Positions 1-21,769 of a stretch of 32,696 bases of DNA are shown piece by piece. Source of the stretch: a virus; the IMG/VR virus record IMGVR_UViG_3300047440_000162, positions 1 to 32,696 of that record. One strand, written 5' to 3'. Under the pieces are notes generated by a model. The model saw only the letters and a list, made by a program, of their open reading frames with translations. It was not told where the DNA came from and ran no database searches. Positions within the stretch are counted from its first letter, which is position 1. Every line of letters starts with the position of its first letter. Position numbers and translations under genes: made by a program.

Positions 1-60
1 ACGAGTTTCGACTGGTTGGTGCCTTTGGTTGTCCACTAGGACGAAATAGAAAGGGAGACA
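1..60 (+). promoter_or_regulatory. Left-truncated intercistronic element
   Basis: The window opens inside a copy of the element that recurs across the first 7.4 kb. The right half is present: the 3' arm GGTGCC of an apical stem, TTTGGTTGTCC, the GTCC-ACTA-GGAC hairpin, and GAAATAGAAAGGGAGACA directly before the ATG at 61. The array therefore continues to the left of this window. Confidence 0.8.
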
Positions 61-270
61 ATGAGAACGAAAAGAATTTGCGCTGGCCTGTACGAAATCA
101 CAACGGACCTAGGCGTTTTCGGCTTGCATAGCGTCAAGCCTTACGAAGATGTCGGTTATGGTCTCGAAACTCGTTGGTACTTAGTACAACCGGGTTGCAG
201 CTATCCCGATGACGTGTTCTGCACGAAAAGGGATGCACTGCTTGCGATTTCGGACATGCTCGCAGCCTAG
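61..270 (+). CDS. Small array protein, unknown function (69 aa)
   Basis: Start is ATG at 61, placed directly after the conserved AAAGGGAGACA ribosome-binding segment. It encodes 69 residues with alternating hydrophobic and aromatic positions (LYEITTDLGVFGLHSV, RWYLVQPG), which suggests a small beta-rich domain, and a C-terminal amphipathic helix (KRDALLAISDML). I recognise no family. The TAG stop lies inside the outer stem of the following intercistronic element. Early accessory function in takeover or counter-defence is typical of such arrays, but that is inference. Confidence 0.85.
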   Translation: MRTKRICAGLYEITTDLGVFGLHSVKPYEDVGYGLETRWYLVQPGCSYPDDVFCTKRDALLAISDMLAA

Positions 271-370
271 CCGATTGCCTTGGGCACCAACCAGTTTGGT
301 GCCTTTGGTTGTCTACTAGGACAAGCGGTTCGGGGACCGTACAAAACCTCGAAACAGAAAGGGAGACACC
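266..370 (+). promoter_or_regulatory. Intercistronic covarying element E1
   Basis: Outer stem CCTAG/CTAGG includes the TAG stop of the upstream gene. Apical stem is GGCACCAA/TTGGTGCC. The competing hairpin is GTCT/GGAC. An insert of about 30 nt separates it from GAAACAGAAAGGGAGACACC before the ATG at 371. Confidence 0.8.
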
Positions 371-592
371 ATGATTGAGACCGAATTCCCCGGAATTGAC
401 GACACCGCTACCCTCGGAGTCGAAACATTCGATGATGCGATTCGGTTCCGTGTTCAACTTGACGAAAACACATGGGCGATAAGCGATTTGAGCCTGGAAC
501 AAGTCAAGCACATGATCGGAAACCTTCAAGAATGGATTGAATGGCAAGCGGCACAAGCGGTTTCGGCCGATCGTGACCCCGGGCACTTCTAG
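371..592 (+). CDS. Small array protein, unknown function (73 aa)
   Basis: ATG at 371 follows AAAGGGAGACACC. The 73-residue product is acidic in its first half and ends in a predicted helix rich in Gln, Glu and Trp (LEQVKHMIGNLQEWIEWQ). There are no cysteines and no recognisable motif. The TAG stop at 590-592 is part of the outer stem of the next element, so gene and downstream element overlap. Confidence 0.85.
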   Translation: MIETEFPGIDDTATLGVETFDDAIRFRVQLDENTWAISDLSLEQVKHMIGNLQEWIEWQAAQAVSADRDPGHF

Positions 593-668
593 TCCGATTG
601 CCTTGCCCTGCAACACAACTGGTTGCAGGGTTTGGTTGTCCGACTAGGACGAAACAGAAAGGGAGACA
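589..668 (+). promoter_or_regulatory. Intercistronic covarying element E2
   Basis: Outer stem is CTAGTC/GACTAG, including the upstream TAG stop. Apical stem is CCCTGCAAC/GTTGCAGGG. Competing hairpin is GTCC/GGAC. GAAACAGAAAGGGAGACA abuts the ATG at 669. Confidence 0.82.
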
Positions 669-968
669 ATGGAATTGACCGAGGTACAAGCGGTCGTTGA
701 CAACATGCTCAATGCTACCTCCGCGGTAGTCGGGACGGGCGGCGGTTGTCAAGCAGTGCAAGCTGTTTGGGGCGATTGGGAAATCCTCGTCACGGATGGT
801 GATGCAGGAGTTGACTTTTCGGATTACTTCGTAGTCGGAACGTACAACTCCGAAGGCGACAATCAGCACTACGTCGAAAAGCGTTGCCCGGCAGGGATTT
901 CCGAGCGCGAACTAAGGTTCGCCCTTATCAAGCTGATCTACCTCGCGACGGGACGAGAAACGGGCTAG
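669..968 (+). CDS. Small array protein, unknown function (99 aa)
   Basis: ATG at 669 immediately follows AAAGGGAGACA. The 99-residue acidic protein has a helical N-terminus (ELTEVQAVVDNMLNA), a Gly-rich turn (GTGGGC), a central beta-rich segment and a C-terminal helix (SERELRFALIKLIYLATG). Two cysteines (one in GGGC, one in KRCPAG) are not arranged as a clear zinc site. No family recognised. Its stop is inside the next element's outer stem. Confidence 0.85.
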   Translation: MELTEVQAVVDNMLNATSAVVGTGGGCQAVQAVWGDWEILVTDGDAGVDFSDYFVVGTYNSEGDNQHYVEKRCPAGISERELRFALIKLIYLATGRETG

Positions 969-1040
969 GCCGATTGCCTTGGGCACCAACAAGTTTGGTG
1001 CCTTTGGTTGTCCACCTAGGACGAAACGGAAAGGGAGACA
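964..1040 (+). promoter_or_regulatory. Intercistronic covarying element E3
   Basis: Outer stem is CTAGG/CCTAG around the TAG stop. Apical stem is GGCACCAA/TTGGTGCC. Competing hairpin is GTCC/GGAC. GAAACGGAAAGGGAGACA precedes the ATG at 1041. Confidence 0.82.
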
Positions 1041-1418
1041 ATGAGAACCGAGCAAATCGAAGCTGCTGTCTACCAAGGCAAATGCCAGATTCGTGCCGAC
1101 ATAGCGGAAGGCCTTGTGCCGCCGTGTGTTTCGAGTTTCGAGGAGTTGCACAGTCACGTTGATGCGAACGAATACGGAAGCATCACGGAACTTGACTTCG
1201 AAACTGGCAATGCCGTTGCAGCGCAACTTGATTCGTGGCTGAAAGCGGGGCGACCTGCCCAAACGTCAAGCAGCGCAAGCGATTGCAAGCATGACCGTGA
1301 CGTATCGACCGTTTACAACGACAAAACGGGCGTATACAGATTCTGCTACGAATGTTCGAACTACATCGACGAGGTGAACCTTCCGAGGACGGAATACCCG
1401 ATCGACAAGATCAAGTGA
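1041..1418 (+). CDS. Array protein with C-terminal Cys-rich tail (125 aa)
   Basis: ATG at 1041 follows the conserved ribosome-binding segment. The 125-residue product has an N-terminal helical region (TEQIEAAVYQGKCQIRADIA), a middle acidic part and a Ser/Ala-rich linker (TSSSASD). A short C-terminal module has Cys-Lys-His upstream and CYECSNYI downstream, with spacing that could bind one zinc ion (C, H, C, C). Function unknown; the zinc site is inference from residue pattern. Confidence 0.85.
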   Translation: MRTEQIEAAVYQGKCQIRADIAEGLVPPCVSSFEELHSHVDANEYGSITELDFETGNAVAAQLDSWLKAGRPAQTSSSASDCKHDRDVSTVYNDKTGVYRFCYECSNYIDEVNLPRTEYPIDKIK

Positions 1419-1490
1419 ATTGCCTTGGGCACCAACACGTTTGGTGCCTTTGGTTGCTTACTTGATGTGAGCGAAACAGAAAGGGAGACA
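1410..1490 (+). promoter_or_regulatory. Intercistronic covarying element E4, diverged hairpin
   Basis: Outer stem is ATCAAGT/ACTTGAT. The second hairpin is not GTCC/GGAC here but GCTTAC/GTGAGC, so both alternative helices have changed sequence while keeping pairing. Apical stem is GGCACCAA/TTGGTGCC. The start segment GAAACAGAAAGGGAGACA places the start at ATG 1491 rather than at earlier in-frame codons. Confidence 0.85.
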
Positions 1491-1787
1491 ATGACAATCG
1501 AAATGACCTACCAGGATCAGGCGATCAAGCATCTAAATGACCTGCAGGACAAGCGGTTTCACTACTTAGCGCAACGGACCGAGGTCGGTGTTTGGCTGAC
1601 CGTTCTGACGACAAGCAACATCGGAAGGCTTTGCAACGCATCGCAAACCGTCGCCGAGGCAATCGGTGCCCGGACCGACGGGAAGCGAGTTTACTTGCGC
1701 GGCAAGGGAATTGCGTGGGATATGCAGCTGCTTCAGAAGTTGACCGCGGTTGATGTGATGGTCGAAGAAGTGATTCCGGTTTTCTAG
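1491..1787 (+). CDS. Small array protein, unknown function (98 aa)
   Basis: The reading frame is open further upstream, but the start is set at ATG 1491 because AAAGGGAGACA directly precedes it and the upstream part is the intercistronic element. The 98-residue protein reads as an alpha/beta domain: helix (QAIKHLNDLQ), strands (GVWLTVLTTS), helix (ASQTVAEAIGA), strand (KRVYLRGKG) and a C-terminal hydrophobic strand (VMVEEVIPVF). One cysteine only. No family recognised. Confidence 0.83.
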   Translation: MTIEMTYQDQAIKHLNDLQDKRFHYLAQRTEVGVWLTVLTTSNIGRLCNASQTVAEAIGARTDGKRVYLRGKGIAWDMQLLQKLTAVDVMVEEVIPVF

Positions 1788-1859
1788 TCCGATTGCCTTG
1801 GGCACCAACCAATTTGGTGCCTCTGGTTGTCCGACTAGGACGAAACAGAAAGGGAGACA
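1784..1859 (+). promoter_or_regulatory. Intercistronic covarying element E5
   Basis: Outer stem CTAGTC/GACTAG contains the upstream TAG. Apical stem is GGCACCAA/TTGGTGCC. Competing hairpin is GTCC/GGAC. GAAACAGAAAGGGAGACA abuts the ATG at 1860. Confidence 0.82.
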
Positions 1860-2072
1860 ATGACAATGAGGTTTGACGCGGTAGACCATGATGGTGACTC
1901 GCTTATGATCCGTGACAGCAACGAGGAGTTTATTCTCTTGCGCTGCAACGATTCTGACGGTGCAAGTTACCAATCGGTTCTCCTCGATCCTGCTCAGGCG
2001 GTGAAAGCTGCTACCGCCCTTCTCATTTGGGCAAACGAAAGGATCGACACAGCCGACGGGCTTTACCGATGA
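1860..2072 (+). CDS. Small array protein, unknown function (70 aa)
   Basis: ATG at 1860 follows the conserved segment; a second in-frame ATG two codons later is possible but less well spaced. The 70-residue acidic product shows beta-type N-terminal strands (DSLMIRD, EEFILLRC) and a C-terminal helix (PAQAVKAATALLIWANERI). This layout is common in small phage proteins, but I cannot assign a family. Confidence 0.84.
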   Translation: MTMRFDAVDHDGDSLMIRDSNEEFILLRCNDSDGASYQSVLLDPAQAVKAATALLIWANERIDTADGLYR

Positions 2073-2167
2073 TCGAATGAATTGCCTTGCCCGCCAACAC
2101 TTTTGGCGGGTTTGGTTGTTCTATTCGAACACCGACGAGGCGGTTCCTCGAAACAGAAAGGGAGACA
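2073..2167 (+). promoter_or_regulatory. Intercistronic covarying element E6, diverged hairpin
   Basis: Outer stem is TCGAAT/ATTCGA just past the TGA stop. The competing hairpin is GTTC/GAAC instead of GTCC/GGAC, a compensatory change. Apical stem is CCCGCCAA/TTGGCGGG. An extra leader hairpin (GAGGCGGTTCCTC) precedes GAAACAGAAAGGGAGACA and the ATG at 2168. Confidence 0.85.
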
Positions 2168-2509
2168 ATGAGTACCGAGGTCAAGGTTACAACCCTGCCC
2201 GATTGCGATATCTGCAAGGCGCAAAAGGCGGAGACAATCAACCGCGCCGAATATGACGGTGCCACAACGCACGGGCCGTGGGCTTACATGTGTCAAAGTC
2301 ATTTCCTCGCAATAGGTTTGGGACTGGGTACAGGGCGCGGACAGAAACTGATCCTCCGCGCCGAAAAGCCAAGCGAGGCAGCACCTTCGGGTGCCGACGA
2401 GCAGGCCGAGCGCATCAAGGAAAACCTGAAAGGTGTTGACTACGACAACCTTTCGCTCGCCGACTTCGAAGACCTTTTCGAGGACCGCGACCCGATGGAA
2501 TTCCTCTGA
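2168..2509 (+). CDS. Array zinc-ribbon-like protein (113 aa)
   Basis: Start is ATG 2168, after AAAGGGAGACA. N-terminal residues hold a CDICKAQ pair and a second pair CQSHF after YM, i.e. Cys-X2-Cys and Cys-X2-His about 30 residues apart. This is consistent with a single zinc-binding ribbon. The middle is Gly-rich (AIGLGLGTGRGQ) and the C-terminal third is very acidic (DYDNLSLADFEDLFEDRD). Small actinophage proteins of this build are common and mostly uncharacterised. Role unknown. Confidence 0.84.
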   Translation: MSTEVKVTTLPDCDICKAQKAETINRAEYDGATTHGPWAYMCQSHFLAIGLGLGTGRGQKLILRAEKPSEAAPSGADEQAERIKENLKGVDYDNLSLADFEDLFEDRDPMEFL

Positions 2510-2610
2510 CCTAGCCGATTGCCTTGCCCCGCAACCGAATTGGTTGCGGGGTTTGGTTGTCTGCTAAGGACACCGACGAGGCGGAACCTCGAAACAGAAA
2601 GGGAGACAGC
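2510..2610 (+). promoter_or_regulatory. Intercistronic covarying element E7
   Basis: Outer stem is CCTAGC/GCTA(A)GG with one bulge. Apical stem is CCCCGCAACC/GGTTGCGGGG. Competing hairpin is GTCT/GGAC. The optional leader hairpin CGAGG/CCTCG is present before GAAACAGAAAGGGAGACAGC and the ATG at 2611. Confidence 0.8.
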
Positions 2611-2793
2611 ATGACTGAGTACGGAATTTTTAACGACGAGGGCTGCATAGAAAATGGCATGTACTCGCTCGATGAAGCGAAATCCGTTGCGGCAGAACGT
2701 TATTCGGATGAACCAGATACCGTCATTCGCGAGATGTGCCCCGAGCACAACGAGCAGCCGCGAGACTCATGCGAGGATTGCTACGCCGAGTGA
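2611..2793 (+). CDS. Array mini zinc protein (60 aa)
   Basis: ATG 2611 follows AAAGGGAGACAGC; the upstream open frame is element sequence. The 60-residue acidic product has an N-terminal part (MTEYGIFNDEGCIENGMYSL), a helix (DEAKSVAAERYSDE) and a C-terminal cluster MCPEH...SCEDC, a Cys/His/Cys/Cys set suggestive of one zinc ion. No family assigned. The TGA stop overlaps the next element's outer stem. Confidence 0.83.
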   Translation: MTEYGIFNDEGCIENGMYSLDEAKSVAAERYSDEPDTVIREMCPEHNEQPRDSCEDCYAE

Positions 2794-2864
2794 ATTGCCT
2801 TGGGCACCAACCAGTTTGGATGGTGCCTTTGGTTGTCCACTAGGACGAAACAGAAAGGGAGACA
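2788..2864 (+). promoter_or_regulatory. Intercistronic covarying element E8
   Basis: Outer stem is AGTG/CACT across the TGA stop. Apical stem is GGCACCAA/TTGGTGCC with a slightly longer loop. Competing hairpin is GTCC/GGAC. GAAACAGAAAGGGAGACA abuts the ATG at 2865. Confidence 0.78.
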
Positions 2865-3149
2865 ATGAAACCGAGCATTACAATGGCCGAAGCTGTTGCC
2901 GTAGCGCAGATTATCGAAGTCGCAAAGGCAGGAGGCGCGGTGGCATGGATGCAGAACGGGAAGGTTCGACGCGGAGTAGCGCGCCACATCGTTTGCAGCG
3001 CAAGCGATTTCAACTTTCTCAACTCGTCAGAGAACGTGTTCGACGGATACCTCAGAGTCACGACCGACACGGGTTTCGATGCGGCACATGCCATTTCGGA
3101 TATCGTGCCGCGGCTCAACAAGGATTGGTTCATCATCAAGTCTAAGTGA
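2865..3149 (+). CDS. Small array protein, unknown function (94 aa)
   Basis: ATG 2865 is directly after AAAGGGAGACA. The 94-residue protein begins with an Ala-rich helix (MAEAVAVAQIIEVAKAGGAVA) resembling helices in two other array proteins. It then has a basic turn (NGKVRRGVARH) and alternating strands (GYLRVTTDTGF) and ends in a lysine-rich strand (WFIIKSK). No family recognised. Confidence 0.85.
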   Translation: MKPSITMAEAVAVAQIIEVAKAGGAVAWMQNGKVRRGVARHIVCSASDFNFLNSSENVFDGYLRVTTDTGFDAAHAISDIVPRLNKDWFIIKSK

Positions 3150-3267
3150 ATTGCCTTGCCCGTCAACAACTCTCGAGAGTTTCGAGAGTCTTGTTTGGCG
3201 GGTTTGGTTGTCCACTTAGGGCACCGCCGAGGGTCGGTTACCCGAGCACGAAAAGAAAAGGGAGACA
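3142..3267 (+). promoter_or_regulatory. Intercistronic covarying element E9
   Basis: Outer stem is CTAAGTG/CACTTAG across the TGA stop. The long apical hairpin carries an inner CTCTCGA/TCGAGAG extension. Competing hairpin is GTCC/GGGC (one wobble). The optional leader hairpin GGGT/ACCC precedes AAAAGAAAAGGGAGACA and the ATG at 3268. Positions 3148-3213 are identical to 7297-7362. Confidence 0.83.
3148..3213 (+). repeat. 66-bp exact direct repeat, copy 1
   Basis: This stretch, from the end of the outer stem through GGTTGTCC, is base-for-base identical to 7297-7362 although the neighbouring genes differ. It forms the apical arm of two intercistronic elements. Confidence 0.9.
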
Positions 3268-3819
3268 ATGGAATTGAGTCTTGCTCAGGAGAAGGTTCGT
3301 GTCGCCGCAGCCGAATACGGTTGGGAGACATACGAACTGGACGAGTACGACGAGCATGTCAGCGGTGAGAATTCCGTCGCAGTGTGGTACACGGCCAAAG
3401 GTCGGGTATCTCGTGCGGAGGTCTACGTCACCGAATCGGAAGACATGCTCGCAGACCCGATCGAACGGGCGACCCCCGACAAGATCACAGCCGTGATCGA
3501 ATGGCTCGAAACCTTTGGTACGCAAGAGGATTCGGGTGAAGAAGAAACCGGCCTTGACGTGTTCCACACGGAACACGTTGAGACCGAAGCCGAAGCTGTT
3601 GCAGCAGAGGAGATTACGGCTCAGCTCAAGGAGGTCGTTGTGGGCATCGACGGGCTTGCAATGCGGATCAACGATAAGGCCGAAGCTGTTGCAGCAGCGG
3701 CCATTTCGCTGACCGAGATTGCACCCGGACCCGAAAAGGTCGATGCTGCAATCAAACTCGCGGAGAAGGCGGATGACCTTTACACCTTGGTCCGACGTCA
3801 GCAGCGCGAGAACGAGTAA
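3268..3819 (+). CDS. Acidic, helical array protein (183 aa)
   Basis: ATG 3268 follows AAAGGGAGACA. The 183-residue protein has an N-terminal helix and strands (VSGENSVAVWYTAKGRV), an acidic linker and two Ala/Glu-rich helical repeats (EAEAVAAEEITAQLKE and KAEAVAAAAISLTEIA) that share near-identical DNA around GCCGAAGCTGTTGCAGCAG. The linker codons for VFHTEHVE contain one of the dispersed GTGTTCC/GGAACAC palindromes. There is no enzymatic motif. A coiled-coil or helical-bundle adaptor is plausible; function unknown. Confidence 0.86.
   Translation: MELSLAQEKVRVAAAEYGWETYELDEYDEHVSGENSVAVWYTAKGRVSRAEVYVTESEDMLADPIERATPDKITAVIEWLETFGTQEDSGEEETGLDVFHTEHVETEAEAVAAEEITAQLKEVVVGIDGLAMRINDKAEAVAAAAISLTEIAPGPEKVDAAIKLAEKADDLYTLVRRQQRENE
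3559..3576. promoter_or_regulatory. Dispersed palindrome site 1
   Basis: GTGTTCC-ACAC-GGAACAC, a perfect 7-bp inverted repeat (8 bp counting the flanking C/G), inside the 183-residue array gene. One of six copies in the window. Confidence 0.75.
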
Positions 3820-3821
3820 GC

Positions 3822-3919
3822 CCTAGCGAATTGCCTTGCCCGGCAACCTCATTGGTTGCCGGGTTTGGTTGTCCGCTAGGACACCGACGAGGCGGAACCT
3901 CGAAACAGAAAGGGAGACA
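3822..3919 (+). promoter_or_regulatory. Intercistronic covarying element E10
   Basis: Outer stem is CCTAGCG/CGCTAGG, three bases past the TAA stop. Apical stem is CCCGGCAACC/GGTTGCCGGG. Competing hairpin is GTCC/GGAC. Leader hairpin CGAGG/CCTCG is followed by GAAACAGAAAGGGAGACA and the ATG at 3920. Confidence 0.85.
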
Positions 3920-4282
3920 ATGAAACTGGAGGCTTACACGCTTGAGGTGATGATCGACCGATTCGCAGAATTGGTTGACGCCCTCAGAGAGCCTGACTCG
4001 AATACCGTTGCAGCGAGAGCGATTTCGCAGCTGCTCGGAGGGCTGACGCACGAGGCGCATTCTGTTGTGCGGCTAGTCAATTCGGTCAATGACGGCGACC
4101 TCGAAGGGGCGACCGAGGATATCGATGCGGTGAAAGCCTCGATTGAAAACCTCAACGGTCTATTCACGGAACACCCTGTCCTGCAAGAGAATCTGACCGA
4201 TCTGATTCTCAAGATCAACGATATGGGCACCATCGTGGACGAGTTGCAAGAGACGAAAGACCGTCTGCTGCAGTTCATGTGA
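3920..4282 (+). CDS. Helical array protein, unknown function (120 aa)
   Basis: Start is ATG 3920 after AAAGGGAGACA; the longer upstream frame is element sequence. The 120 residues are almost entirely helix-forming heptad-like sequence (TLEVMIDRFAELVDALRE, TLDLILKIND-type segments and TIVDELQETKDRLLQFM), with no cysteines. A coiled-coil or four-helix bundle protein is likely. Function unknown. Confidence 0.85.
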   Translation: MKLEAYTLEVMIDRFAELVDALREPDSNTVAARAISQLLGGLTHEAHSVVRLVNSVNDGDLEGATEDIDAVKASIENLNGLFTEHPVLQENLTDLILKINDMGTIVDELQETKDRLLQFM

Positions 4283-4385
4283 CCGAGTGAATTGCCTTGC
4301 CCGGCAGCCTAACTGGTTGCCGGGTTTGGTTGTCCACTCGGACAACGTAACCCGTCAGGGTTGCATCGAAATGGAAAGGGAGACA
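4283..4385 (+). promoter_or_regulatory. Intercistronic covarying element E11
   Basis: Outer stem is CCGAGTG/CACTCGG just past the TGA stop. Apical stem is CCCGGCAGCC/GGTTGCCGGG with one mismatch. Competing hairpin is GTCC/GGAC. A different leader hairpin, AACCC/GGGTT, precedes GGAAAGGGAGACA and the ATG at 4386. Confidence 0.83.
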
Positions 4386-4562
4386 ATGGAATTCATGACA
4401 ATGAGTGAAATGGCAGAATTTCTGCATCAGCCGCTCGCCAACGTAAAGTATTGGCGCGCAACGGGTTTACTCCCCGAACCTGATGCGAAAATAGGTCGGG
4501 CCGTAGGATGGTCCGCGGAGTCTGCTCTAAAGTTCGCTCACGACAAGGGAATTGCCGCCTAG
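4386..4562 (+). CDS. Small helix-turn-helix protein, MerR/AlpA/Xis-like (58 aa)
   Basis: Start is ATG 4386, directly after AAAGGGAGACA. The 58 residues form the compact winged-helix seen in AlpA/excisionase proteins: helix MSEMAEFLHQ, turn, recognition helix LANVKYWRATG, LLPEPDAKIGRAVGW wing, and helix SAESALKFAHDKG. Such proteins bind DNA as transcription regulators or recombination directionality factors. No integrase lies in this window, so a regulator is the safer guess. Fold confident, role inferred. Confidence 0.87.
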   Translation: MEFMTMSEMAEFLHQPLANVKYWRATGLLPEPDAKIGRAVGWSAESALKFAHDKGIAA

Positions 4563-4636
4563 TGAATTGCCTTGCCCTGCAACGAAACCCGTTGCAGGGT
4601 TTGGTTGTCCACTAGGACGAAACGGAAAGGGAGACA
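4558..4636 (+). promoter_or_regulatory. Intercistronic covarying element E12
   Basis: Outer stem is CCTAGTG/CACTAGG with the TAG stop inside. Apical stem is CCCTGCAAC/GTTGCAGGG. Competing hairpin is GTCC/GGAC. GAAACGGAAAGGGAGACA abuts the ATG at 4637. Confidence 0.85.
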
Positions 4637-4936
4637 ATGAGATTAGCACCCGAGTATCGGTGCAGGTACTGCGGTGAAGATTTGGTACCGCGGCACGATT
4701 GCGAGGCCCGTCCGAAGCCGACACGCTCGGATATCCTCGCAGCGTTGAAGGAGGTAACTCCGAAATACCTTGCAGCAGAACCGAATATAACGGAGGCGCC
4801 GAAAGGCCGCTTCTTCCTTGCGGTTTCGCCCGACCTACAGGCGCGAAACCGTCACTCTAAGCACAGGATTGGGATACCCCTCCTTGCTCGAGGGTATTAC
4901 CTGACGACCGTGACCGACGGTATCTACATCTACTGA
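4637..4936 (+). CDS. Array zinc-ribbon protein (99 aa)
   Basis: ATG 4637 follows AAAGGGAGACA. N-terminal residues 9-20 carry CRYCGEDLVPRHDC, a Cys-X2-Cys then His-X-Cys set typical of a zinc ribbon or knuckle. The rest of the 99 residues is basic then beta-rich, ending in YYLTTVTDGIYIY. A nucleic-acid or protein binding role is plausible. The TGA stop sits inside the next element's outer stem. Confidence 0.85.
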   Translation: MRLAPEYRCRYCGEDLVPRHDCEARPKPTRSDILAALKEVTPKYLAAEPNITEAPKGRFFLAVSPDLQARNRHSKHRIGIPLLARGYYLTTVTDGIYIY

Positions 4937-5054
4937 GTGAATTGCCTTGCCTGCCAACCAGTTTGGCCGGTTTGGTTGTCCACTCAGGACAGCAAGGGGC
5001 GCAGACTCGAAAGGGTTTGCGCCCCTTGTACTTTCGAAGAAAAGGGAGACAGAA
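4933..5054 (+). promoter_or_regulatory. Intercistronic covarying element E13 with long leader hairpin
   Basis: Outer stem is CTGAGTG/CACTCAG over the TGA stop. Apical stem is CCTGCCAA/TTGGCCGG with a mismatch. Competing hairpin is GTCC/GGAC. A 10-bp leader hairpin AAGGGGCGCA/TGCGCCCCTT lies at about 4985-5025, before AAAAGGGAGACAGAA and the ATG at 5055. Confidence 0.82.
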
Positions 5055-5390
5055 ATGGCAGAGATCAAGTTGCCCAACGGGGTTACCGTTGAAGTGTCGG
5101 AAGCATTCGCGGAAGACCTTGTGCGACAGGCACTTACGCCTGCGAGCAGCAACGGGCATGTACCGAAAACCGTTGACGTGCAACACATTTCCGCGGCGCT
5201 CACGAAGGCGCAGCGGGAAGCGTGGGAGGTTCTTCGTGAGTACCCGGAAGGGATGCATTGCGCAAGTGCTGCAACGCTTTTGGGTATCACGTCTTCCGCT
5301 GCATCGCAACGGTTTACGATTCTGATTACTGTCGGTCTTGCTAAGAGGGTCGGCGCGGGTAGGTATGCTCCCGCCGACGGGACACTCTAA
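5055..5390 (+). CDS. Winged-helix regulator-like array protein (111 aa)
   Basis: ATG 5055 follows AAAGGGAGACAGAA. After a short beta hairpin (IKLPNGVTVEVSEAF) and linker, residues about 50-105 match a winged helix-turn-helix: TKAQREAWEVLREYPEG, CASAATLLGIT, SSAASQRFTILITVGLAKRVGAGRYAP. This is the arrangement of MarR/IclR-type DNA-binding domains, with the wing at KRVGAGRYA. It is probably a small transcription regulator; target unknown. Confidence 0.85.
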   Translation: MAEIKLPNGVTVEVSEAFAEDLVRQALTPASSNGHVPKTVDVQHISAALTKAQREAWEVLREYPEGMHCASAATLLGITSSAASQRFTILITVGLAKRVGAGRYAPADGTL

Positions 5391-5484
5391 GCCGATTGCC
5401 TTGCCCTGCAACACTTCTTGTAGGGTTTGGTTGTCCGCTTAGGGCACCGCCGAGGTCGGTAACCTCGAAACAGAAAGGGAGACA
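5387..5484 (+). promoter_or_regulatory. Intercistronic covarying element E14
   Basis: Outer stem is CTAAGC/GCTTAG over the TAA stop. Apical stem is CCCTGCAA/TTGTAGGG with one wobble. Competing hairpin is GTCC/GGGC. Leader hairpin GAGG/CCTC is followed by GAAACAGAAAGGGAGACA and the ATG at 5485. Confidence 0.83.
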
Positions 5485-5910
5485 ATGGAATTCAGTGATT
5501 GGTTTGTGGTGCCCGTTTCGGGTGTCGCCTATCGTCACCCGTTCGTGGCAGGCGCGGATGCGAGATTGGCTGCGCTGCAAGACATTTGCTGCGGTTTTGT
5601 CGAAGCGGTCCCGCTGCTGCCGACAATCGAATTTTGGTGCAACGACACGGCGATGCTCAACGGTGAACCGCCAAATATGTTGGCTACCAAGATAATTGCG
5701 CTCGTCAGTGGCAAGCAGCTTCGCCAATTCCTACACGGCACAATCGTTTTCGTGCCCTCGGGGAACGAGCCTGACCTAGCAGCCGCGCAAGCGGTTTTCG
5801 ACGCTATCAGCTTGACCGACGAGGAACTTGACCTGCTACGGGAAATCGAAGCAGAGGAGTTGCGCCGCAACAAGATTCGCGAACAGTCCATGCGCGATAT
5901 GCTTGAATGA
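5485..5910 (+). CDS. Array protein, unknown function (141 aa)
   Basis: ATG 5485 is next to AAAGGGAGACA. The 141-residue protein has a beta-rich first half (WFVVPVSGVAYRHPF, TIEFWCNDTAMLNGE), a central segment (GTIVFVPSGNEPDLAAAQAVFDAI) and a charged C-terminal helix (DEELDLLREIEAEELRRNKIREQ). The middle resembles small phage proteins of the DUF3846 type only loosely, so I do not assign it. Function unknown. Confidence 0.85.
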   Translation: MEFSDWFVVPVSGVAYRHPFVAGADARLAALQDICCGFVEAVPLLPTIEFWCNDTAMLNGEPPNMLATKIIALVSGKQLRQFLHGTIVFVPSGNEPDLAAAQAVFDAISLTDEELDLLREIEAEELRRNKIREQSMRDMLE

Positions 5911-6009
5911 ATTGCCTTGCCCGCCAACCGGTTTGGCGGGTTTGGTTGTCCATTCAAGGACACCGCCGAGGGTCGGTTACCTTCAGCACGAAATGAAAAG
6001 GGAGACAGA
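5902..6009 (+). promoter_or_regulatory. Intercistronic covarying element E15, longest outer stem
   Basis: Outer stem CTTGAATG/CATTCAAG is a perfect 8 bp and contains the TGA stop. Apical stem is CCCGCCAA/TTGGCGGG. Competing hairpin is GTCC/GGAC with a 6-nt loop. Leader hairpin GGGT/TACC type precedes AAAAGGGAGACAGA and the ATG at 6010. Confidence 0.86.
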
Positions 6010-6720
6010 ATGATTGACCTGCCAATGTTGGACAAGGCCCTGGATCAGATCAAGATGCTCGCCGAAGCCGAAGCTGCTGCACGACAGTGCATTTCGCAGC
6101 AGAGCATCGACGGGGATCGGGTCGGATTCTCGGCGGACTGGAACCAATCCGCTTGGCGCACAATCGAAGTGGACGAGAAGCAGCACCGCTGCAACACGTC
6201 CATGTGCCTCGCAGGCTGGGTCGCAGAACTTGATCCTCAGGTCGATTGGAAAGTGAATGCCGTTGAGTACCTTCGACTTTCGAAGGCAACTCACGATGCG
6301 GAGGTCGCCTTCGAATCGATGGACGAGTTGCACAATCGGCATTACTCCTCGGCTTTGGCCGAAAAGTATTCCGAGGCAAGGACTTCGGCCCGGCAAGCCT
6401 ACGGCAAGATCAGCAATCTCTATCAGGACATGACGAACATGCTCAATCTCGTTGTGCCGGTTGGTAATACGGAGCATGTTGATGTTGAAACGTGGGCGAC
6501 GGATCGGCTCGGCTTGACGGGTACTCAAGCGAGCGAATTGTTCGTGGGGCACAACGACATTGAGCGCATCGAAAGGGTGCTCAATGCCCTCCGCGACGAT
6601 CCGAGCTGGAACGGTTTCGATGACTCCGACGAGGACGATGACGACGAGGATTACTCGTCGGATTCGCTTGCGGCGCAGTGCGATTGCGGTCCGTGCCGTC
6701 GGGACCGCGGCGAGGAGTAA
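6010..6720 (+). CDS. Array protein with CNTSMCLAGW motif and acidic Cys-rich tail (236 aa)
   Basis: ATG 6010 follows AAAGGGAGACAGA. It is the largest array product, 236 residues. Residues 56-70 read KQHRCNTSMCLAGW, a His/Cys-X4-Cys-X2-Gly-Trp signature I recognise from uncharacterised proteins of many tailed phages. A helical middle follows, then a run of Asp/Glu (about residues 203-218), and a final CDCGPCRRDRGEE with three closely spaced cysteines. Metal binding is likely at one or both Cys clusters. Function unknown; the acidic tail could mimic nucleic acid, which is speculation. Confidence 0.86.
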   Translation: MIDLPMLDKALDQIKMLAEAEAAARQCISQQSIDGDRVGFSADWNQSAWRTIEVDEKQHRCNTSMCLAGWVAELDPQVDWKVNAVEYLRLSKATHDAEVAFESMDELHNRHYSSALAEKYSEARTSARQAYGKISNLYQDMTNMLNLVVPVGNTEHVDVETWATDRLGLTGTQASELFVGHNDIERIERVLNALRDDPSWNGFDDSDEDDDDEDYSSDSLAAQCDCGPCRRDRGEE

Positions 6721-6725
6721 CCTCA

Positions 6726-6808
6726 CCGAGTGAATTGCCCGGCCCTGCAACGTATTTCGGTACGTTGCAGGGTGTGGGTTGTCCACTCGGACAAAAGGAA
6801 AGGGAGAC
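6726..6808 (+). promoter_or_regulatory. Intercistronic covarying element E16
   Basis: Outer stem is CCGAGTG/CACTCGG, 6 nt past the TAA stop. Extended apical stem is CCCTGCAACGTA/TACGTTGCAGGG. Inner flanks differ from the other copies (TTGCCCGG and TGTGGGTTG). Competing hairpin is GTCC/GGAC. GGAAAGGGAGAC abuts the ATG at 6809. Confidence 0.83.
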
Positions 6809-7030
6809 ATGAGAGAATTGAAATGCCTGGAACACGGCGAAAGCTGTTCCGGTACAGTCGAATACAGATATCCGCTCTCGTCAACGGGGAAAAACTTCGC
6901 TCGTTGCGACCTGCATTGGGCAATCGCCGTCAAGCGATGGGAAGAAAATCAACGTAAGTACGGAGGCTCTTGTCCGCCAAGCGATTTCGACCCGACCTAT
7001 GCAGGAGAAAGGTGGGACGAGGATGACTGA
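6809..7030 (+). CDS. Small Cys/His array protein (73 aa)
   Basis: ATG 6809 overlaps the end of AAAGGGAGACATG. The 73-residue product has CLEHGESC near its start and RCDLHW in the middle, i.e. C-X2-H and C-X2-H pairs compatible with zinc binding. An acidic C-terminus (YAGERWDEDD) follows. It overlaps the next gene by 8 bp, the only array junction without an intercistronic element, so these two genes form one translational unit. Confidence 0.84.
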   Translation: MRELKCLEHGESCSGTVEYRYPLSSTGKNFARCDLHWAIAVKRWEENQRKYGGSCPPSDFDPTYAGERWDEDD

Positions 7031-7295
7031 CCGAATCACCGCCGAAATCGAAGTTATCACAAGCGATTTCGAAGCCTACGTCAAACAGGACCCGGACGGG
7101 CGGTTCACCTTGTGGTGGGGCGATCATGTTGCGAATGTTTGGGAGGAGAAGTATCAGACGTTAGGCGCGGCGCTGATGCGACTCGCTGCACTCGAATTCT
7201 GTTGCAGCGCAGACAGATACTTTGCGCACGACTCGATAGACTTCGGGGAAGCCGCGGCGAGATTCGTTGTGGCAGAAACGATTGCGGTTCCCTAG
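7023..7295 (+). CDS. Small array protein, unknown function (90 aa)
   Basis: Start ATG 7023 lies inside the end of the previous gene, with GAGAAAGGTGGGACGAGG upstream acting as ribosome-binding site. An in-frame ATG at 6999 is possible but has no better signal. The 90-residue protein has beta strands (TAEIEVITSDFEAYV, GRFTLWWGDHVANVW) and helices (LGAALMRLAALEFCC, FGEAAARFVVAE). No family recognised. Confidence 0.82.
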   Translation: MTDRITAEIEVITSDFEAYVKQDPDGRFTLWWGDHVANVWEEKYQTLGAALMRLAALEFCCSADRYFAHDSIDFGEAAARFVVAETIAVP

Positions 7296-7412
7296 CGAAT
7301 TGCCTTGCCCGTCAACAACTCTCGAGAGTTTCGAGAGTCTTGTTTGGCGGGTTTGGTTGTCCGCTAGGACACGGCCCGAGGTCCGATACCTCGAAAAGGA
7401 AAGGGAGACAAC
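7291..7412 (+). promoter_or_regulatory. Intercistronic covarying element E18
   Basis: Outer stem is CCTAGCG/CGCTAGG containing the TAG stop. The apical arm is identical to element E9. Competing hairpin is GTCC/GGAC. Leader hairpin GAGGT/ACCTC precedes TCGAAAAGGAAAGGGAGACAAC and the ATG at 7413. Confidence 0.85.
7297..7362 (+). repeat. 66-bp exact direct repeat, copy 2
   Basis: Identical to 3148-3213. The outer stem on either side differs between the two copies yet still pairs in each. Confidence 0.9.
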
Positions 7413-7907
7413 ATGGTTCGCAAACTGGAAGGCTTCGAAGGCCCTTCGGTTTTCGTGTTCGGAAACGATGAGCTGCACGATTACTTTGTGGCGCAAGAGA
7501 ATTCGCGCACCGAAGAAGCCGACACCGAGGCCGCCCCTCCCGTCGAAAAGGAAAGGGAGGCAACAACTCTCGTGGTCGCACCCATCGAAATCGAATGCCC
7601 TGCATGCCAAGCGAAGCCGGGTGAGCCTTGCACTCAACCAAATGACAACGGGCGCAAGCCCGTTCGTTGGTTTCACTTGAGTCGCGAGGACCGCGCCCTC
7701 GGTTGGGAAGCCTCAGAAGATAAGCCCTGCAGGGGAATTGGGCAATCGTGGGGGATGATTCAGGGTCGGGCAATTTGCCCGGTCTGCTATCGGACCGCGG
7801 AGTCGATGGGTGAATTCCCTGAGAAAATGTGGGGAAAACTCGGACTGCGAGTGAAAAGCGTTCCGCGGCACGAACTTCGGATGTTCTCGGAGCGCCTCGG
7901 AACGTAA
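7413..7907 (+). CDS. Zinc-binding array protein, apparent two-cassette fusion (164 aa)
   Basis: ATG 7413 follows AAAGGGAGACAAC. Residues 1-45 are a short acidic domain (LEGFEGPSVFVFGNDELHDYF). Residues 60-95 hold CPACQAKPGEPC plus a downstream His, the zinc motif shared by many actinobacterial and actinophage small proteins. A CPVC pair follows near residue 130. Between the two parts, codons for VEKEREATT are an in-frame copy of the start-associated sequence (7543-7565), and an in-frame GTG at 7572 could start a shorter 111-residue zinc protein. This suggests two ancestral cassettes fused after loss of a junction. Confidence 0.85.
   Translation: MVRKLEGFEGPSVFVFGNDELHDYFVAQENSRTEEADTEAAPPVEKEREATTLVVAPIEIECPACQAKPGEPCTQPNDNGRKPVRWFHLSREDRALGWEASEDKPCRGIGQSWGMIQGRAICPVCYRTAESMGEFPEKMWGKLGLRVKSVPRHELRMFSERLGT
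7543..7574 (+). promoter_or_regulatory. Internal remnant start-associated sequence
   Basis: TCGAAAAGGAAAGGGAGGCA inside the 164-residue gene matches the gene's own leader TCGAAAAGGAAAGGGAGACA at all but one base. The ancestral ATG position now reads AAC, but an in-frame GTG follows 11 nt after the Shine-Dalgarno core. Confidence 0.6.
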
Positions 7908-7955
7908 GTAGCCCAACGTAATTCGGACCTGAGAGAGACACATTCAAAACCCAAG

Positions 7956-7992
7956 CCCCGCAACGACATTCGTGCCGTTGCGGGGTTTTTTT
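7956..7992 (+). terminator. Strong intrinsic terminator closing the array
   Basis: A perfect 10-bp stem CCCCGCAACG/CGTTGCGGGG with a 10-nt loop is followed by seven T residues. This is the best canonical Rho-independent terminator in the window. It separates the element array from the next gene. Confidence 0.9.
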
Positions 7993-17175: not shown

Positions 17176-17607
17176 ATGACTTTGCGTAGTGTGCGGCGGA
17201 CGAGGGTCCGTGATTTGGAGAAGGTTAAGGGGTGGCTCGAAACCGCTTTGTACTCAGGCGATTTGACTGCTCGGGATACGGTGGGTGTCGTTTCGCGTTA
17301 TCAGTCGATTATGGAAGAGATTGAGGGAGTTGCCTTTTCGCAATCCGAGGAAGGCCAGTTGAAAGACAAACTGGCAGATACGGTTTCGGAAAATAAATCC
17401 CTTGCGCGGCAACTTCTTTCGGCTGAGAAGGATTACGACAACGAGCGGACGAAGAAGGAATTGGCTTTGTTCCAAATCGATTCTCTGCGAACAGAATTGG
17501 AGGCTGTTCGTTCGGAGTTGGAGTTGTTGCGGACTGTCGGCTCGGGGAACACTCCTCTTGACGAATTCAATAAGAAACGAGCCGAGAAAATGGGTGTCGT
17601 GTCGTGA
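17176..17607 (+). CDS. Terminase small subunit, putative (143 aa)
   Basis: ATG 17176 has AGGAAGG upstream. The 143-residue protein has a basic N-terminal helix (LRSVRRTRVRDLEKVKGWLETAL) and a long coiled coil (about residues 60-115, LKDKLADTVSENKSLARQLLSAEKDYDNE), ending with a short linker. Position directly ahead of and overlapping the large subunit by GTGA, and the DNA-binding-plus-coiled-coil build, support the small terminase that recognises phage DNA for packaging. Sequence itself is not diagnostic. Confidence 0.78.
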   Translation: MTLRSVRRTRVRDLEKVKGWLETALYSGDLTARDTVGVVSRYQSIMEEIEGVAFSQSEEGQLKDKLADTVSENKSLARQLLSAEKDYDNERTKKELALFQIDSLRTELEAVRSELELLRTVGSGNTPLDEFNKKRAEKMGVVS

Positions 17608-19082
17608 CCGCGCAACCCTTGCCGAATATCGTTGAGGGCAGCCAAAACCCTACATGGTCAACTATTGTCCCGTTCGATTGGACCGATGTTGACGATGCTG
17701 TTTTCCTCGCGAAAGGCTATGGGCTGCAAGCCGATCCGTGGCAGAAGGAAGTTCTGCAAATCATGTTGGCCTGCAACGGTTCTCGTGAGAAACCGAAATG
17801 GGCGAGTCGTCAAGTGTGCGTTAGTGTTCCGAGGCAGAACGGGAAGAATGGCGCGGTAGAGATTCGGGAATTGTTCGGGCTTGTCGAATTAGGTGAACGA
17901 ATTCTTCATACAGCGCATACGGTTTCGACTGCGAGGAAAGCTTTTCTGCGAATGCTGCATTTCCTCGAGAATGATCGGTTCCCTGAGTTGAAAAGCCTTG
18001 TCGTGCATATCCGTCGGGCGAACGGGCAAGAGGCTATTAAAATGGCCAATGGTGGGTCGATCGAATTCTGTGCTCGCGCAACGAATTCGGGGCGCGGCTT
18101 TTCTGTGGACACGATCATTTTCGATGAGGCACAACACATTTCGGAAGAAGGGCATGAGGCTCTGTTGCCGACAATTTCGGCTTCCCCGAATGCGCAGACA
18201 ATTTATATCGGGACTCCGCCCGGTCCAATGGTGAAGGGAGACATATTCTCTCGTTTGCGGCAGGCGGCGAAAGACCGTGTGAATCCACAACTTTCGTGGC
18301 TCGAGTGGGGCGTGCCCGAAAAGGGGAATCATAGTCTCGATGATCCGAAGGTGTGGGCGGTCGCGAATCCTGCTCTGGGATATAGGATTACGGTCGATGC
18401 CATTCTTGCGGAACGGGCAGCCTTCTCGGATGAGGGTTTCGAACGGGAGAGGCTCGGAGTTTGGCACGATTATGCAAGCAGGCTAACGGTTCTCGATATG
18501 GATAAGTGGAATGCGTTGGCGGACAAGCGTTCCGGGATTGAATCGGAAAACGATATTGTCATTGCGATGGATATGACTCCGCACCGGGATGCTGTTTCGG
18601 TTGCGTTGTGCGGCAAGGCTTTACGAAGTAAATTGCCGCATTGCGAGGTCGTGCCTGCGCCGACAATGAACCGCGGTACGAGTTGGGCATTGCCGTGGGT
18701 CGCTGAACGGGCAAAGAAGTGGCGGGCAACGGTTGTTATCGATTCCGCTTCTCCTGCAAGCGTTTACATAGAGCCGCTTCGGCAGCGTGGCGTGAAAGTG
18801 CTTGTGACTGGGATGAAAGAAATGGGGCAGGCCTGCGGATTGCTTTGGGACACAGTGGAATCCGGTAATTTGCGTCATTACGGTCAGCCCGGAATGGATA
18901 GTGCCCTAATGGGTGCTCGCAGAAGGGATTTGGGCGACGGGTCATGGGGATGGCATCGCCGTAAATCGGAGTTGGATATTAGTCCGCTCGTTTCGTTTAC
19001 TCTCGCGCATTATGGGTGGACAATCCAAAGGGACACAAGAGAATTCGCCGGGAAACGAAAGACGTTGGTGGCCTTGACATGA
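17604..19082 (+). CDS. terL: Terminase large subunit (492 aa)
   Basis: GTG 17604 overlaps the previous TGA. This is the DNA-packaging motor. ATPase domain: QADPWQKEVL adenine-binding motif (residues 42-51), Walker A-like VPRQNGKN (75-82), Walker B IIFDEAQH (171-178), and the IYIGTPPGP coupling motif near 200. RNase H-like nuclease domain: IAMDMTPHRDA (Asp323) and VVIDSASPA (Asp380), with a later DSALMGARRRDLGDG acidic strand. Length 492 is typical. It feeds DNA through the portal encoded next. Confidence 0.95.
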   Translation: MTAQPLPNIVEGSQNPTWSTIVPFDWTDVDDAVFLAKGYGLQADPWQKEVLQIMLACNGSREKPKWASRQVCVSVPRQNGKNGAVEIRELFGLVELGERILHTAHTVSTARKAFLRMLHFLENDRFPELKSLVVHIRRANGQEAIKMANGGSIEFCARATNSGRGFSVDTIIFDEAQHISEEGHEALLPTISASPNAQTIYIGTPPGPMVKGDIFSRLRQAAKDRVNPQLSWLEWGVPEKGNHSLDDPKVWAVANPALGYRITVDAILAERAAFSDEGFERERLGVWHDYASRLTVLDMDKWNALADKRSGIESENDIVIAMDMTPHRDAVSVALCGKALRSKLPHCEVVPAPTMNRGTSWALPWVAERAKKWRATVVIDSASPASVYIEPLRQRGVKVLVTGMKEMGQACGLLWDTVESGNLRHYGQPGMDSALMGARRRDLGDGSWGWHRRKSELDISPLVSFTLAHYGWTIQRDTREFAGKRKTLVALT

Positions 19083-20488
19083 CAATCACCGTGCAGGACA
19101 GTGCAATTGAGTCTCCGCTTTGGTGGCTCGAAAGATTGGCCGACGAATTGGCATTGCGCCGCTCGAATTACGAGACTTACCGTGATTACGTTGACGGTGA
19201 GCAGGCGATGCCGAAAGGTGAACAGTCGCAACGCTTTCGGGAGTTGGCAGGGCTTGCGACTACGAACCTGACGGGTCTGACGGTCGAGGCTACCGCAGAA
19301 CGTATGCATATCAACGGTATTCGCGAGCATGACCAAACGGAGATGCACGAAAAGGCTTGGGAGATATGGCGAAACAGCAATTTCGATGAATGGTCGCAGC
19401 ATGCGATTACGTCGGCACTGATTTACGGTCGCTGCATGATCGGGGTAGACCCGAAGGGTTTCAAAAACGAATCCCCTTCTCTCACATACGAATCCCCCGA
19501 GCAGGTCGTTATTGCCTATGACCCGGTGAATGGGAATTCGCGTGCGGCACTTAAGGTTTGGACCGACGAATGGACGTACCAAACTTTCGGCACACTTTAT
19601 CTGCCCGACTATATTATCAAGTTTATCGACAACGCAATCGACGGTGACCCTCGCGATTGGTCGGTTCGGGATACTATGCGAAACCCGTTGGGACGCATAC
19701 CTTTTTTCGAAATGCAGAATCGTCCGCTCGGTAAAGTCAGGTCCGAAATTGCTCCGCTGATTGTTCCGCAGGATGCGTTGAATCGCACCATGTTTAACCT
19801 GCAAGCGATTTCGGATTACGGCGCCTTCCGTCAAAAGTGGGCGACGGGAATTGAAGTGCCGCGTGACCCGATTACTTCGAAACCGCTCGAGCCTTTTAAT
19901 TCGAATATCACGAAAATGTTTTTGTCGGAAAGTAGCGATTCGAAATTCGGTGACTTCAATGCGACCGACTTGAAACCGCATATCGAATTGGCACGCGAAA
20001 TCGCTTGGCACATAGCAAGAATCAGCCGCCTTCCCGTCAGCTACTTTCTCACCGACGTTTCGAACATTTCGACAGACACTCTCGCACTTCTCATTTCGGG
20101 TCTCGTATCTAAGTGTCAGAGAAGGGTTTTGGGATACGAACCGGGTTTTCAGGATGCGATTACTTTCGCACTCGAATTGTCGGGCGAAAAGCCAACGGGC
20201 ACAATCGAAGTCATGTGGGCCGAAATGGAAACCCGTTCAATGGCACAAGGCGCGGATGCGGCCGTAAAGCTAACTGCTGGAACGAATCCCGTTATTTCGA
20301 CTCGACTAGCCGCCGAGAAATTCGTTGGATTGTCACCCGAGGAAATCGCGAGGGATGAACAATACCGGGCAGAGCAGCAGGCTCAATTGGATATTGACGC
20401 CATTCTTGCGAGCGTCAATCCGCAAGCAGGACAACAGAATCCACAGCAAGAGCAGCCGAATAACGAAGAGCCGCAAGAGGTTCCGTAG
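19079..20488 (+). CDS. Portal protein, SPP1 gp6-like (469 aa)
   Basis: ATG 19079 overlaps the terminase stop by four bases. The 469-residue protein forms the dodecameric DNA channel at one capsid vertex. It shows the gp6-type pattern: RRSNYETYRDYVDGEQAMP near the N-terminus, LTVEATAERMHINGI, the conserved GRIPFFEMQNRP and IAPLIVPQDALNRTMFNL core, and a Gln/Asn-rich tail. Genomic position between the large terminase and the MuF-like protein is standard. Confidence 0.93.
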   Translation: MTITVQDSAIESPLWWLERLADELALRRSNYETYRDYVDGEQAMPKGEQSQRFRELAGLATTNLTGLTVEATAERMHINGIREHDQTEMHEKAWEIWRNSNFDEWSQHAITSALIYGRCMIGVDPKGFKNESPSLTYESPEQVVIAYDPVNGNSRAALKVWTDEWTYQTFGTLYLPDYIIKFIDNAIDGDPRDWSVRDTMRNPLGRIPFFEMQNRPLGKVRSEIAPLIVPQDALNRTMFNLQAISDYGAFRQKWATGIEVPRDPITSKPLEPFNSNITKMFLSESSDSKFGDFNATDLKPHIELAREIAWHIARISRLPVSYFLTDVSNISTDTLALLISGLVSKCQRRVLGYEPGFQDAITFALELSGEKPTGTIEVMWAEMETRSMAQGADAAVKLTAGTNPVISTRLAAEKFVGLSPEEIARDEQYRAEQQAQLDIDAILASVNPQAGQQNPQQEQPNNEEPQEVP

Positions 20489-21204
20489 TGAGCAGGTATA
20501 CCGACGCATTGGTTGCGCGGCGACGGGCGGAATCGCTTCTCCTGCGCCAAGATTCGGCGAACAAAATCGCGAGTGTGTTCAACGTGTTCCACCCGGAACA
20601 CCTTGACTCAACTTTCAGCAACCTTGCCGACATAACTTCGAAAGTTGTTCGGCGGCAACGTGTTACGTCATCGGGCCTTGCGTCGAACTGGACTCGCGAT
20701 TACCGTGCAGCACATGGCCTTTCGGGTGAACCGCCCATCGATTGGTCGGTGACCGAATTCGATGAAGCACATTGGACGAAAAACCTTCACGCGCAAACGG
20801 TTGCGAGCGTGAAAAACAATGTGGCGAAAGGACTTTCGATTGACGGGGCAATGACCCGAGCCTTGACGAATGTGCAGGGAATGGCGATTAAATGGACACT
20901 CGACTCGGGCCGAGATTTAATTCTCGATTCTGTTGCGAGAGATAAGCATTCGCAAGGATGGCGACGGGTTATATCAGGTTCGAAAGGTTGCTCGTTCTGT
21001 ACGATGCTCGCGAATAGACCGCAGAATTATTCGAAGGAGACCGCGCATTTCGCGAGTCACGATCATTGCTCTTGCAGTTGCGTTCCCGTCTACGGCGGCA
21101 AGGCAATTGAGGTCGATAAAAAATTCGAGCAGACAAAGCGTAAGATCACCGATAATCAGCGCGAACAAATTCGCGAGTATTTGAAAACTCACCCCACAGG
21201 TTGA
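20488..21204 (+). CDS. MuF-like capsid morphogenesis protein (238 aa)
   Basis: GTG 20488 shares one base with the portal stop. The 238-residue protein has helical N-terminal sequence, then the signature RRVISGSKGCSFCTMLANR (residues about 162-179) and FASHDHCSCSCVPVY (188-201), the Cys/His pattern of VG15/MuF minor head proteins in actinophages, probably metal-binding. It is packaged in the head and may be ejected. The codons for VFHPEHLD include palindrome site 5. Confidence 0.88.
   Translation: MSRYTDALVARRRAESLLLRQDSANKIASVFNVFHPEHLDSTFSNLADITSKVVRRQRVTSSGLASNWTRDYRAAHGLSGEPPIDWSVTEFDEAHWTKNLHAQTVASVKNNVAKGLSIDGAMTRALTNVQGMAIKWTLDSGRDLILDSVARDKHSQGWRRVISGSKGCSFCTMLANRPQNYSKETAHFASHDHCSCSCVPVYGGKAIEVDKKFEQTKRKITDNQREQIREYLKTHPTG
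20584..20601. promoter_or_regulatory. Dispersed palindrome site 5
   Basis: GTGTTCC-ACCC-GGAACAC in the MuF-like gene, same codon phase as sites 1, 3 and 4. Confidence 0.75.
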
Positions 21205-21241
21205 CAAATGGTTTACTATTCAGAAAGGGAAATCAGCCGCG

Positions 21242-21760: not shown

Positions 21761-21769
21761 GTGAAATAA

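Follow-up and report, generated by a model that had tools for sequence, protein, structure and literature searches.

The left end of the actinobacterial siphophage contig IMGVR_UViG_3300047440_000162 raises the question of what the self-complementary sequence repeated between nearly all of its small genes might do. The window analysed here is this complete linear IMG/VR contig of 32,696 bp, which encodes terminase, portal, capsid, tape measure and primase-polymerase proteins and carries a small-gene array at 61-7907, with some 20 small genes of which most have no family assignment. A first-pass annotation made from the letters had described 17 covarying intercistronic RNA elements at 266-7412, present at almost every junction. 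We find all 17 and show here that each folds as a single extended hairpin, hereafter the rod, and the comparisons below make it near certain that the rod is a covarying RNA structure. Of the 18 junctions lying between the gene that starts at 61 and the one that starts at 7413, 17 carry a complete rod; a further copy, the 18th, is truncated by the contig start. The sole rod-free junction, 7023/7030, is also the site of the sole overlapping gene pair in the array.

From 5' to 3', a junction reads outer arm, ATTGCC, TT, apical stem-loop, TTTGGTTGTCC, outer 3' arm and GGAC, followed by a second hairpin (10/17), the leader GAAACAGAAAGGGAGACA and ATG. The order that had been proposed earlier therefore stands, with small departures in the copies 1419, 1792, 2081, 2518 and 6734; the accompanying picture of separate stems around loops does not, because the inner strands pair with each other and make one rod. 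A 5-7-pair outer stem is followed by one 1x1 mismatch, AU/GU pairs, a U.U mismatch and GCC/GGU, then by a 2x2 UU/UU loop and an apical stem of about 8-11 pairs, all in a rigid register; in detail, AATTGCC-TT pairs with the TTTGGTTGTCC strand as A-U, U-G, U.U, G-U, C-G and C-G up to the 2x2 loop. Nearly constant are the U.U mismatch flanked by UG/UG, the 1x1 mismatch and, as a rule, a 3'-side UUGUCC. The two columns below this inner motif are either of a GA type (A.C mismatch, G-C) or of a CG type (G-C, C.C or C.U mismatch), most copies keeping exactly one mismatch that toggles between the two adjacent positions and two copies having a 2x2 loop there. The rods are always sense-oriented between stop and start, and score 64-83 bits on the coding strand vs at most 33 bits on the opposite strand with R1, a covariance model trained on the window copies; covariance E-values are rough throughout. 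The stop codon lies within the outer stem in 12 of the 17 copies, the same count as in the first-pass annotation, and 0-5 nucleotides (nt) upstream in the remaining five, whose arm, read as sequence, still contains a stop triplet. In most folds the leader is unpaired. A promoter was looked for in the rod and none was found.

The evidence for an RNA structure comes from the way in which the strands vary together. Among the window copies, 93.3% of cells are paired vs 77.7% after shuffling and 59 cells carry double changes vs 19.6, and neither value was reached in any of 500 shuffles. When the 3' arms were swapped among copies, the observed pairing was never reached in 100,000 trials, for the outer or the apical helix. 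These shuffles preserve column content and not relatedness, and copies from the same genome are non-independent: rods 9 and 17 have identical apical inserts with different yet complementary outer arms, apical families cluster locally along the array, and local copying links the rods of any one genome. Gene duplication as the origin of the copies was rejected, as a mutual comparison of the 20 array proteins revealed no likeness and the proteins are not paralogues. Because of the local copying, the independent evidence is the recurrence of the rod in other phages.

The proteins of the window share about 30% identity with Gordonia, Mycobacterium, Rhodococcus and other actinophage records; a near-identity search of phage records with the window gave no match, and relatives sought via the primase, terminase and exonuclease yielded nothing close. 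A direct search for the rod pattern returned 7 matches in viral contigs and 16 in genomes, which were single, scattered and attributable to chance. The route to relatives was instead a dispersed DNA motif of the window, described below, which led to the 71,237-bp contig IMGVR_UViG_3300009826_000003 (G020); like most of the relatives, both it and the window are environmental contigs, and the two phages, almost without kinship, share only a handful of protein matches (31-42%). R1 marks 12 places in G020, ten of them within one small-gene array at 17,242-23,602, and of the 12 rods counted in this contig two were recognised by eye and fold. The G020 rods have an outer stem that usually holds the stop codon, the toggling mismatch, the U.U position and UUGUCC in common with the window, whereas a continuous upper stem takes the place of the UU/UU loop, and in three copies the pair above the U.U switches from C-G to G-C. 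From AUUGC through GUUGU there are 41 nt in 11 of 12 copies, although the sequence is variable. The register predicted from the window holds in G020, where 0 of 20,000 arm swaps reach the observed pairing for each helix.

A search with GTTGTCCRCTAGGACA led to the Rhodococcus phage RGL3, in which R1 also detects a rod; the other contigs matched by it, G020 excepted, are chance matches. By folding and with a second model, rods were found in further cultured phages of cluster CA; RGL3, RER2, Hiro, Partridge and Rasputin have 2-4 model-detected rods each at homologous right-arm junctions, those of RER2 at 38382-38440, 39298-39359 and 40424-40485. Where the inner motif begins at its base, RGL3 has an A-U pair and RER2 has U-A. 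When 19 rods taken from G020, RGL3 and RER2 are considered together, paired cells make up 90.0% vs 66.6% shuffled, and both-side changes affect 18 of the 21 pairs, with a covariation score of 0.641 vs 0.222; slid controls are 32-42% paired, a comparison in which the structure string is favoured over its slid versions, having been written after the members' folds were seen, although its register had first been set on the window copies. A joint MAFFT alignment of all lineages, in which the upper stems are misaligned, was left out of these counts. The second model, R2, was built from the 19 rods, is free of window sequence and detects, on the coding strand, 13 of the 17 rods of the window; over 1.26 Mb it otherwise returned known rods, opposite-strand echoes and a few matches of 15-17 bits. 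The capsid relatives (46-60% identical), TinyDot, ReqiPine5 and Firecracker are without rods, as is the searched portion of Finch, which was picked for its large small-gene array. In one capsid relative, L082 (IMGVR_UViG_3300021399_000539), several small genes at 1-3000 each have a repeated promoter-like block (TGTGTAGGTATAGACATATA...) and a terminator-like hairpin of their own, a different solution to the same problem. The first-pass annotation had suggested searching related phage genomes with a covariance model, and such searches extend its covarying, stop-codon-pairing element to other phage lineages. The rod is thus a conserved and apparently undescribed phage RNA family in at least three lineages, cultured Rhodococcus phages included; no gathering-score match to Rfam was obtained in the whole window. 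From RGL3 and its kin, the host of the window phage is perhaps a Rhodococcus or near relative.

The motif that led to G020 is a degenerate 29-bp palindrome, CGAAA-N4-TTGC-N3-GCAA-N4-TTTCG, which tiles the entire window in all reading frames. There are 31 sites with at most three mismatches vs 0.02 expected and 326 non-overlapping sites of at least 9 bits vs about 7, at a mean spacing of 100 bp; training on one half of the window and testing on the other gave 139 vs 2.9 and 185 vs 3.3. The palindrome has a sharp spacing optimum and sharp ends at 29 bp, and its halves, tested at symmetric positions of the dispersed sites, do not covary; for these reasons it behaves as a double-stranded DNA protein site, and the idea that the dispersed palindrome stands for an RNA hairpin was rejected. 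With the window matrix, G020 has 361 sites, G021 163 and G022 60, vs 11, 10 and 5 in reversed controls, and a weaker enrichment is seen in RER2, Rasputin, Finch and the Gordonia phage SheckWes. A helix-turn-helix-like protein encoded in the array at 5055-5390 has homologues in G020 (42%) and G021 (49%), the two other contigs richest in palindromes; as a candidate palindrome binder it is only a lead. Clustered near-perfect palindromes are also present in IMGVR_UViG_3300025601_000035 (G026; 30254-35513) and IMGVR_UViG_3300001336_000002 (G024; 44927-52854), and these clusters, with up to 18/18 matches, may represent an array of a more typical kind (operator, origin or partition).

Scored with a matrix trained outside the array only, a palindrome is found at the identical place in all 17 window rods (15.6-23.7 bits), for example at 3827-3855, where it begins 3 bases 5' of ATTGCC, and most leaders hold a further site (7-18 bits). 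Both the 5' conserved strand of the rod and the leader word therefore coincide with the genome-wide palindrome. In G020, the palindrome of all 12 rods is centred on the apical loop (9.5-24.9 bits). In cluster CA, several rod loops contain CTTGACAATAGAC, the reverse complement of the stoperator described earlier (PMC13313380). The 14-bp stoperator TGTCTATTGTCAAG is present in two of the three model-detected rods of RER2 and likewise in Rasputin, the window rods having the palindrome instead, and the one rod without it in each of these two phages retains the structure. The embedded DNA sites account for part of the sequence conservation of the element, not for its covariation.

Our preferred reading, to which we give a probability of roughly 40%, is that the rod may serve as an intercistronic RNA processing and insulation hairpin with an embedded repressor-type DNA site. 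The rod would form in transcripts that read through the junction, and a protein specific for double strands, in all likelihood an RNase III-type enzyme of the host, would recognise the rod of approximately 25 layers by its conserved block of mismatches (1x1 mismatch, 2-3 pairs, U.U) and make its cut at that block. In this way the polycistronic message would be split up; the 3' end of each unit would lie in or next to a hairpin at the stop codon of that unit, and its 5' end would be an open leader, GAAACAGAAAGGGAGACA-ATG. On repressed DNA elongation could stop at the gene end, and during lytic growth the read-through RNA would fold. Rod and dispersed DNA site do coincide, as a palindrome in the window and G020 and as a stoperator in several cluster CA rods. 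Processing by an enzyme specific for double-stranded RNA is preferred because the near-constant length, the mismatch block and the intercistronic position resemble the T7 R sites; that the length is nearly constant while the sequence varies is as for a length-measuring binder of double-stranded RNA. Several observations weigh against this proposal. The bases around the U.U could equally contact a different RNA-binding protein, and the internal loop of T7 R1.1 is asymmetric with 4/5 nt (PMC6121014), while the rod loops are small and symmetric. The register of the palindrome differs, lying in the 5' half of the window rods and at the apical loop in G020, and the coupling of the two elements may be an economy of space. 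Finally, R2 detects no rods outside the three lineages in 1,259 kb, which indicates that there is no general need for them. A wider version, which we consider possible if doubtful, is that several actinobacteriophage lineages would share a two-layer gene-end element, composed of a DNA site for a protein able to stop elongation and an RNA rod that surrounds the stop codon and partitions the operon into separate messages; in the window its DNA layer would have expanded until a palindrome recurs roughly once per 100 bp.

Translational insulation without cleavage is ranked next after processing, and we regard it as unlikely. The rod would refold behind the terminating ribosome and prevent coupling or run-on while the leader stays open, so that every small gene would be translated independently. 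A stop codon inside the stem or 0-5 nt before it in 17 of 17 copies, and a strongly conserved leader word that is unpaired in most folds, are in agreement with this; it leaves unexplained, however, why the mismatch block is kept despite wholly different outer and upper sequences across lineages. Less probable again is a cis-acting antitermination or polymerase-binding RNA of the put or nut kind, which would let polymerase pass protein-bound sites and Rho in a setting of many dispersed sites and weakly translated small genes. The conservation of an internal motif rather than of the loop would suit such an RNA, as would the restriction of rods to small-gene operons and their co-location with repressor-type sites. 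Known antitermination elements, however, suffice in one or two copies, whereas the rods number 12-17 here and match no Rfam family.

The GC-rich apical stem followed by UUUGGUUGU could also suggest leaky or conditional intrinsic terminators or attenuators. A consensus scan, with a total of 15 matches expected, returned 27 terminator-like ones, to which the apical stems of 11 rods belong; the genuine terminator of the operon, at 7955, combines the same apical sequence with U7. However, the outer 3' arm, which would be missing from terminated RNA, covaries with the 5' arm (0/100,000 swaps), and since it lies beyond the would-be U-tract the RNA under selection is the one that reads through, and a plain terminator is thereby disfavoured. 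Moreover, the tract is paired and interrupted by GG, base pairs replace it in G020, and an operon with seventeen consecutive terminators would be shut off unless these were very leaky; we therefore hold this explanation to be improbable, and termination as the sole function of the rods is already unlikely. The least probable of these alternatives makes the rod primarily a DNA element, a by-product of a stoperator-like carpet and of junction copying at recombination seams. It would fit the fixed place of the palindrome in every rod, the identical apical inserts of rods 9 and 17 and the local clustering of apical families; it is opposed by the strong covariation of rods, including pairs outside the palindrome, where dispersed palindrome halves show none, and by the stoperator-free rods of RER2 and Rasputin, which keep their structure.

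The individual rods, for which folding, stop-codon mapping, shuffle statistics and R1 scores are the common basis, all lie on the + strand. Those with the stop codon within the stem are rod 1 (266-320; TAG 268-270), rod 2 (589-647; TAG 590-592), rod 3 (965-1019; TAG 966-968), rod 4 (1411-1465; TGA 1416-1418), rod 5 (1784-1838; TAG 1785-1787), rod 8 (2786-2844; TGA 2791-2793), rod 9 (3142-3219; TGA 3147-3149), rod 12 (4558-4616; TAG 4560-4562), rod 13 (4933-4987; TGA 4934-4936), rod 14 (5387-5442; TAA 5388-5390), rod 15 (5903-5957; TGA 5908-5910) and rod 17 (7291-7368; TAG 7293-7295), the apical inserts shared by rods 9 and 17 being long. The stop codon is immediately upstream of rod 6 (2073-2127; TGA 2070-2072), rod 7 (2510-2568; TGA 2507-2509) and rod 11 (4283-4341; TGA 4280-4282), slightly upstream of rod 10 (3822-3880; TAA 3817-3819), which is matched by R2 too, and upstream of rod 16 (6726-6790; TAA 6718-6720). 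The truncated copy at 1-44 (+) comprises the apical 3' half, GGTTGTCC and the 3' arm, and scores 28.3 bits with R1.

The optional second hairpin, identified from sequence and folds, is found on the + strand at 321-350, 2128-2149, 2569-2590, 3220-3249, 3881-3901, 4342-4367, 4988-5043, 5443-5466, 5958-5989 and 7369-7392. Its arms are often interleaved (ACCG, GAGG, CGGT, CCTC), as two exclusive hairpins or a small pseudoknot, at 321-350, where the first pair is flipped (CGGT, ACCG), and at 2128-2149, 2569-2590, 3220-3249, 5443-5466 and 7369-7392. One leader GAAACAGAAAGGGAGACA per junction is present over the range 43-7410, for example at 351-368 (+), where it includes a Shine-Dalgarno-like GGGAG directly 5' of the start codon. 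At the end of the array, a canonical terminator (7955-7990, +) has a rod-like apical stem in which TTTTTTT replaces TTTGGTTGT. Elsewhere in the window, an open reading frame at 25777-25986, in another frame directly after the stop codon of the major tail protein, is a possible programmed frameshift extension.

The rods define a covariation-supported RNA family at the gene boundaries of small-gene operons, the least understood part of phage genomes. The RNA family itself and its combination with embedded sites are apparently new, being absent from Rfam and the literature searched; if RNase III cleavage is true, this novelty narrows to that of a variant within a known class. The presence of rods in cultured Rhodococcus erythropolis phages makes the expression and silencing of dozens of tiny adjacent genes directly testable, and the stoperator link offers a concrete entry to the relation between gene-end repressor sites and messenger RNA.

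Among known systems, the start-associated sequences (SAS) and extended SAS (ESAS) of cluster K phages, which the first-pass annotation had named as the nearest parallel, share with the junctions a repeated start-proximal word with a Shine-Dalgarno core among non-structural genes, about half of them with an upstream inverted repeat. As a sign of kinship this parallel is not supported: the 13-bp SAS word GGGATAGGAGCCC, located 3-7 bp before starts, has 5 matches with at most three mismatches in the window vs 6.4 expected and none in the array, and the 17-bp inverted repeats of ESAS have been reported as not supporting RNA pairing (PMC3203893), in contrast to rod arms, which pair and covary. Intrinsic terminators likewise have a GC-rich apical stem-loop and a U-rich stretch, but in rods UUUGGUUGU is interrupted and paired with AUUGCC, and the covarying arms extend beyond it. 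Stoperators are described as 13-14-bp asymmetric DNA sites bound by repressor (PMC9283540, PMC13313380), at which cluster A repressors stop elongation (PMC9283540). As with rods, the stoperators of clusters A and CA are located at gene ends in one orientation and, in cluster CA, inside the loops of several rods; the searched passages of these papers make no mention of a surrounding covarying rod, and some rods have no stoperator. The rods also resemble T7 R1.1, an intercistronic RNase III site whose 60-nt hairpin contains an internal loop (PMC6121014): judging by folds and lengths, they too are double-stranded RNA hairpins between cistrons, measure about 60 nt and include internal loops. The context of an early polycistronic message is shared with the T7 R sites as well, and transcription of the right-arm genes of the cluster CA phage WC1 is already under way at 5 min (PMC10986025). 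The rods are set apart by the pairing of the stop codon and by the embedded repressor sites, neither of which belongs to the description of R1.1, and cleavage of the rods is what the comparison predicts.

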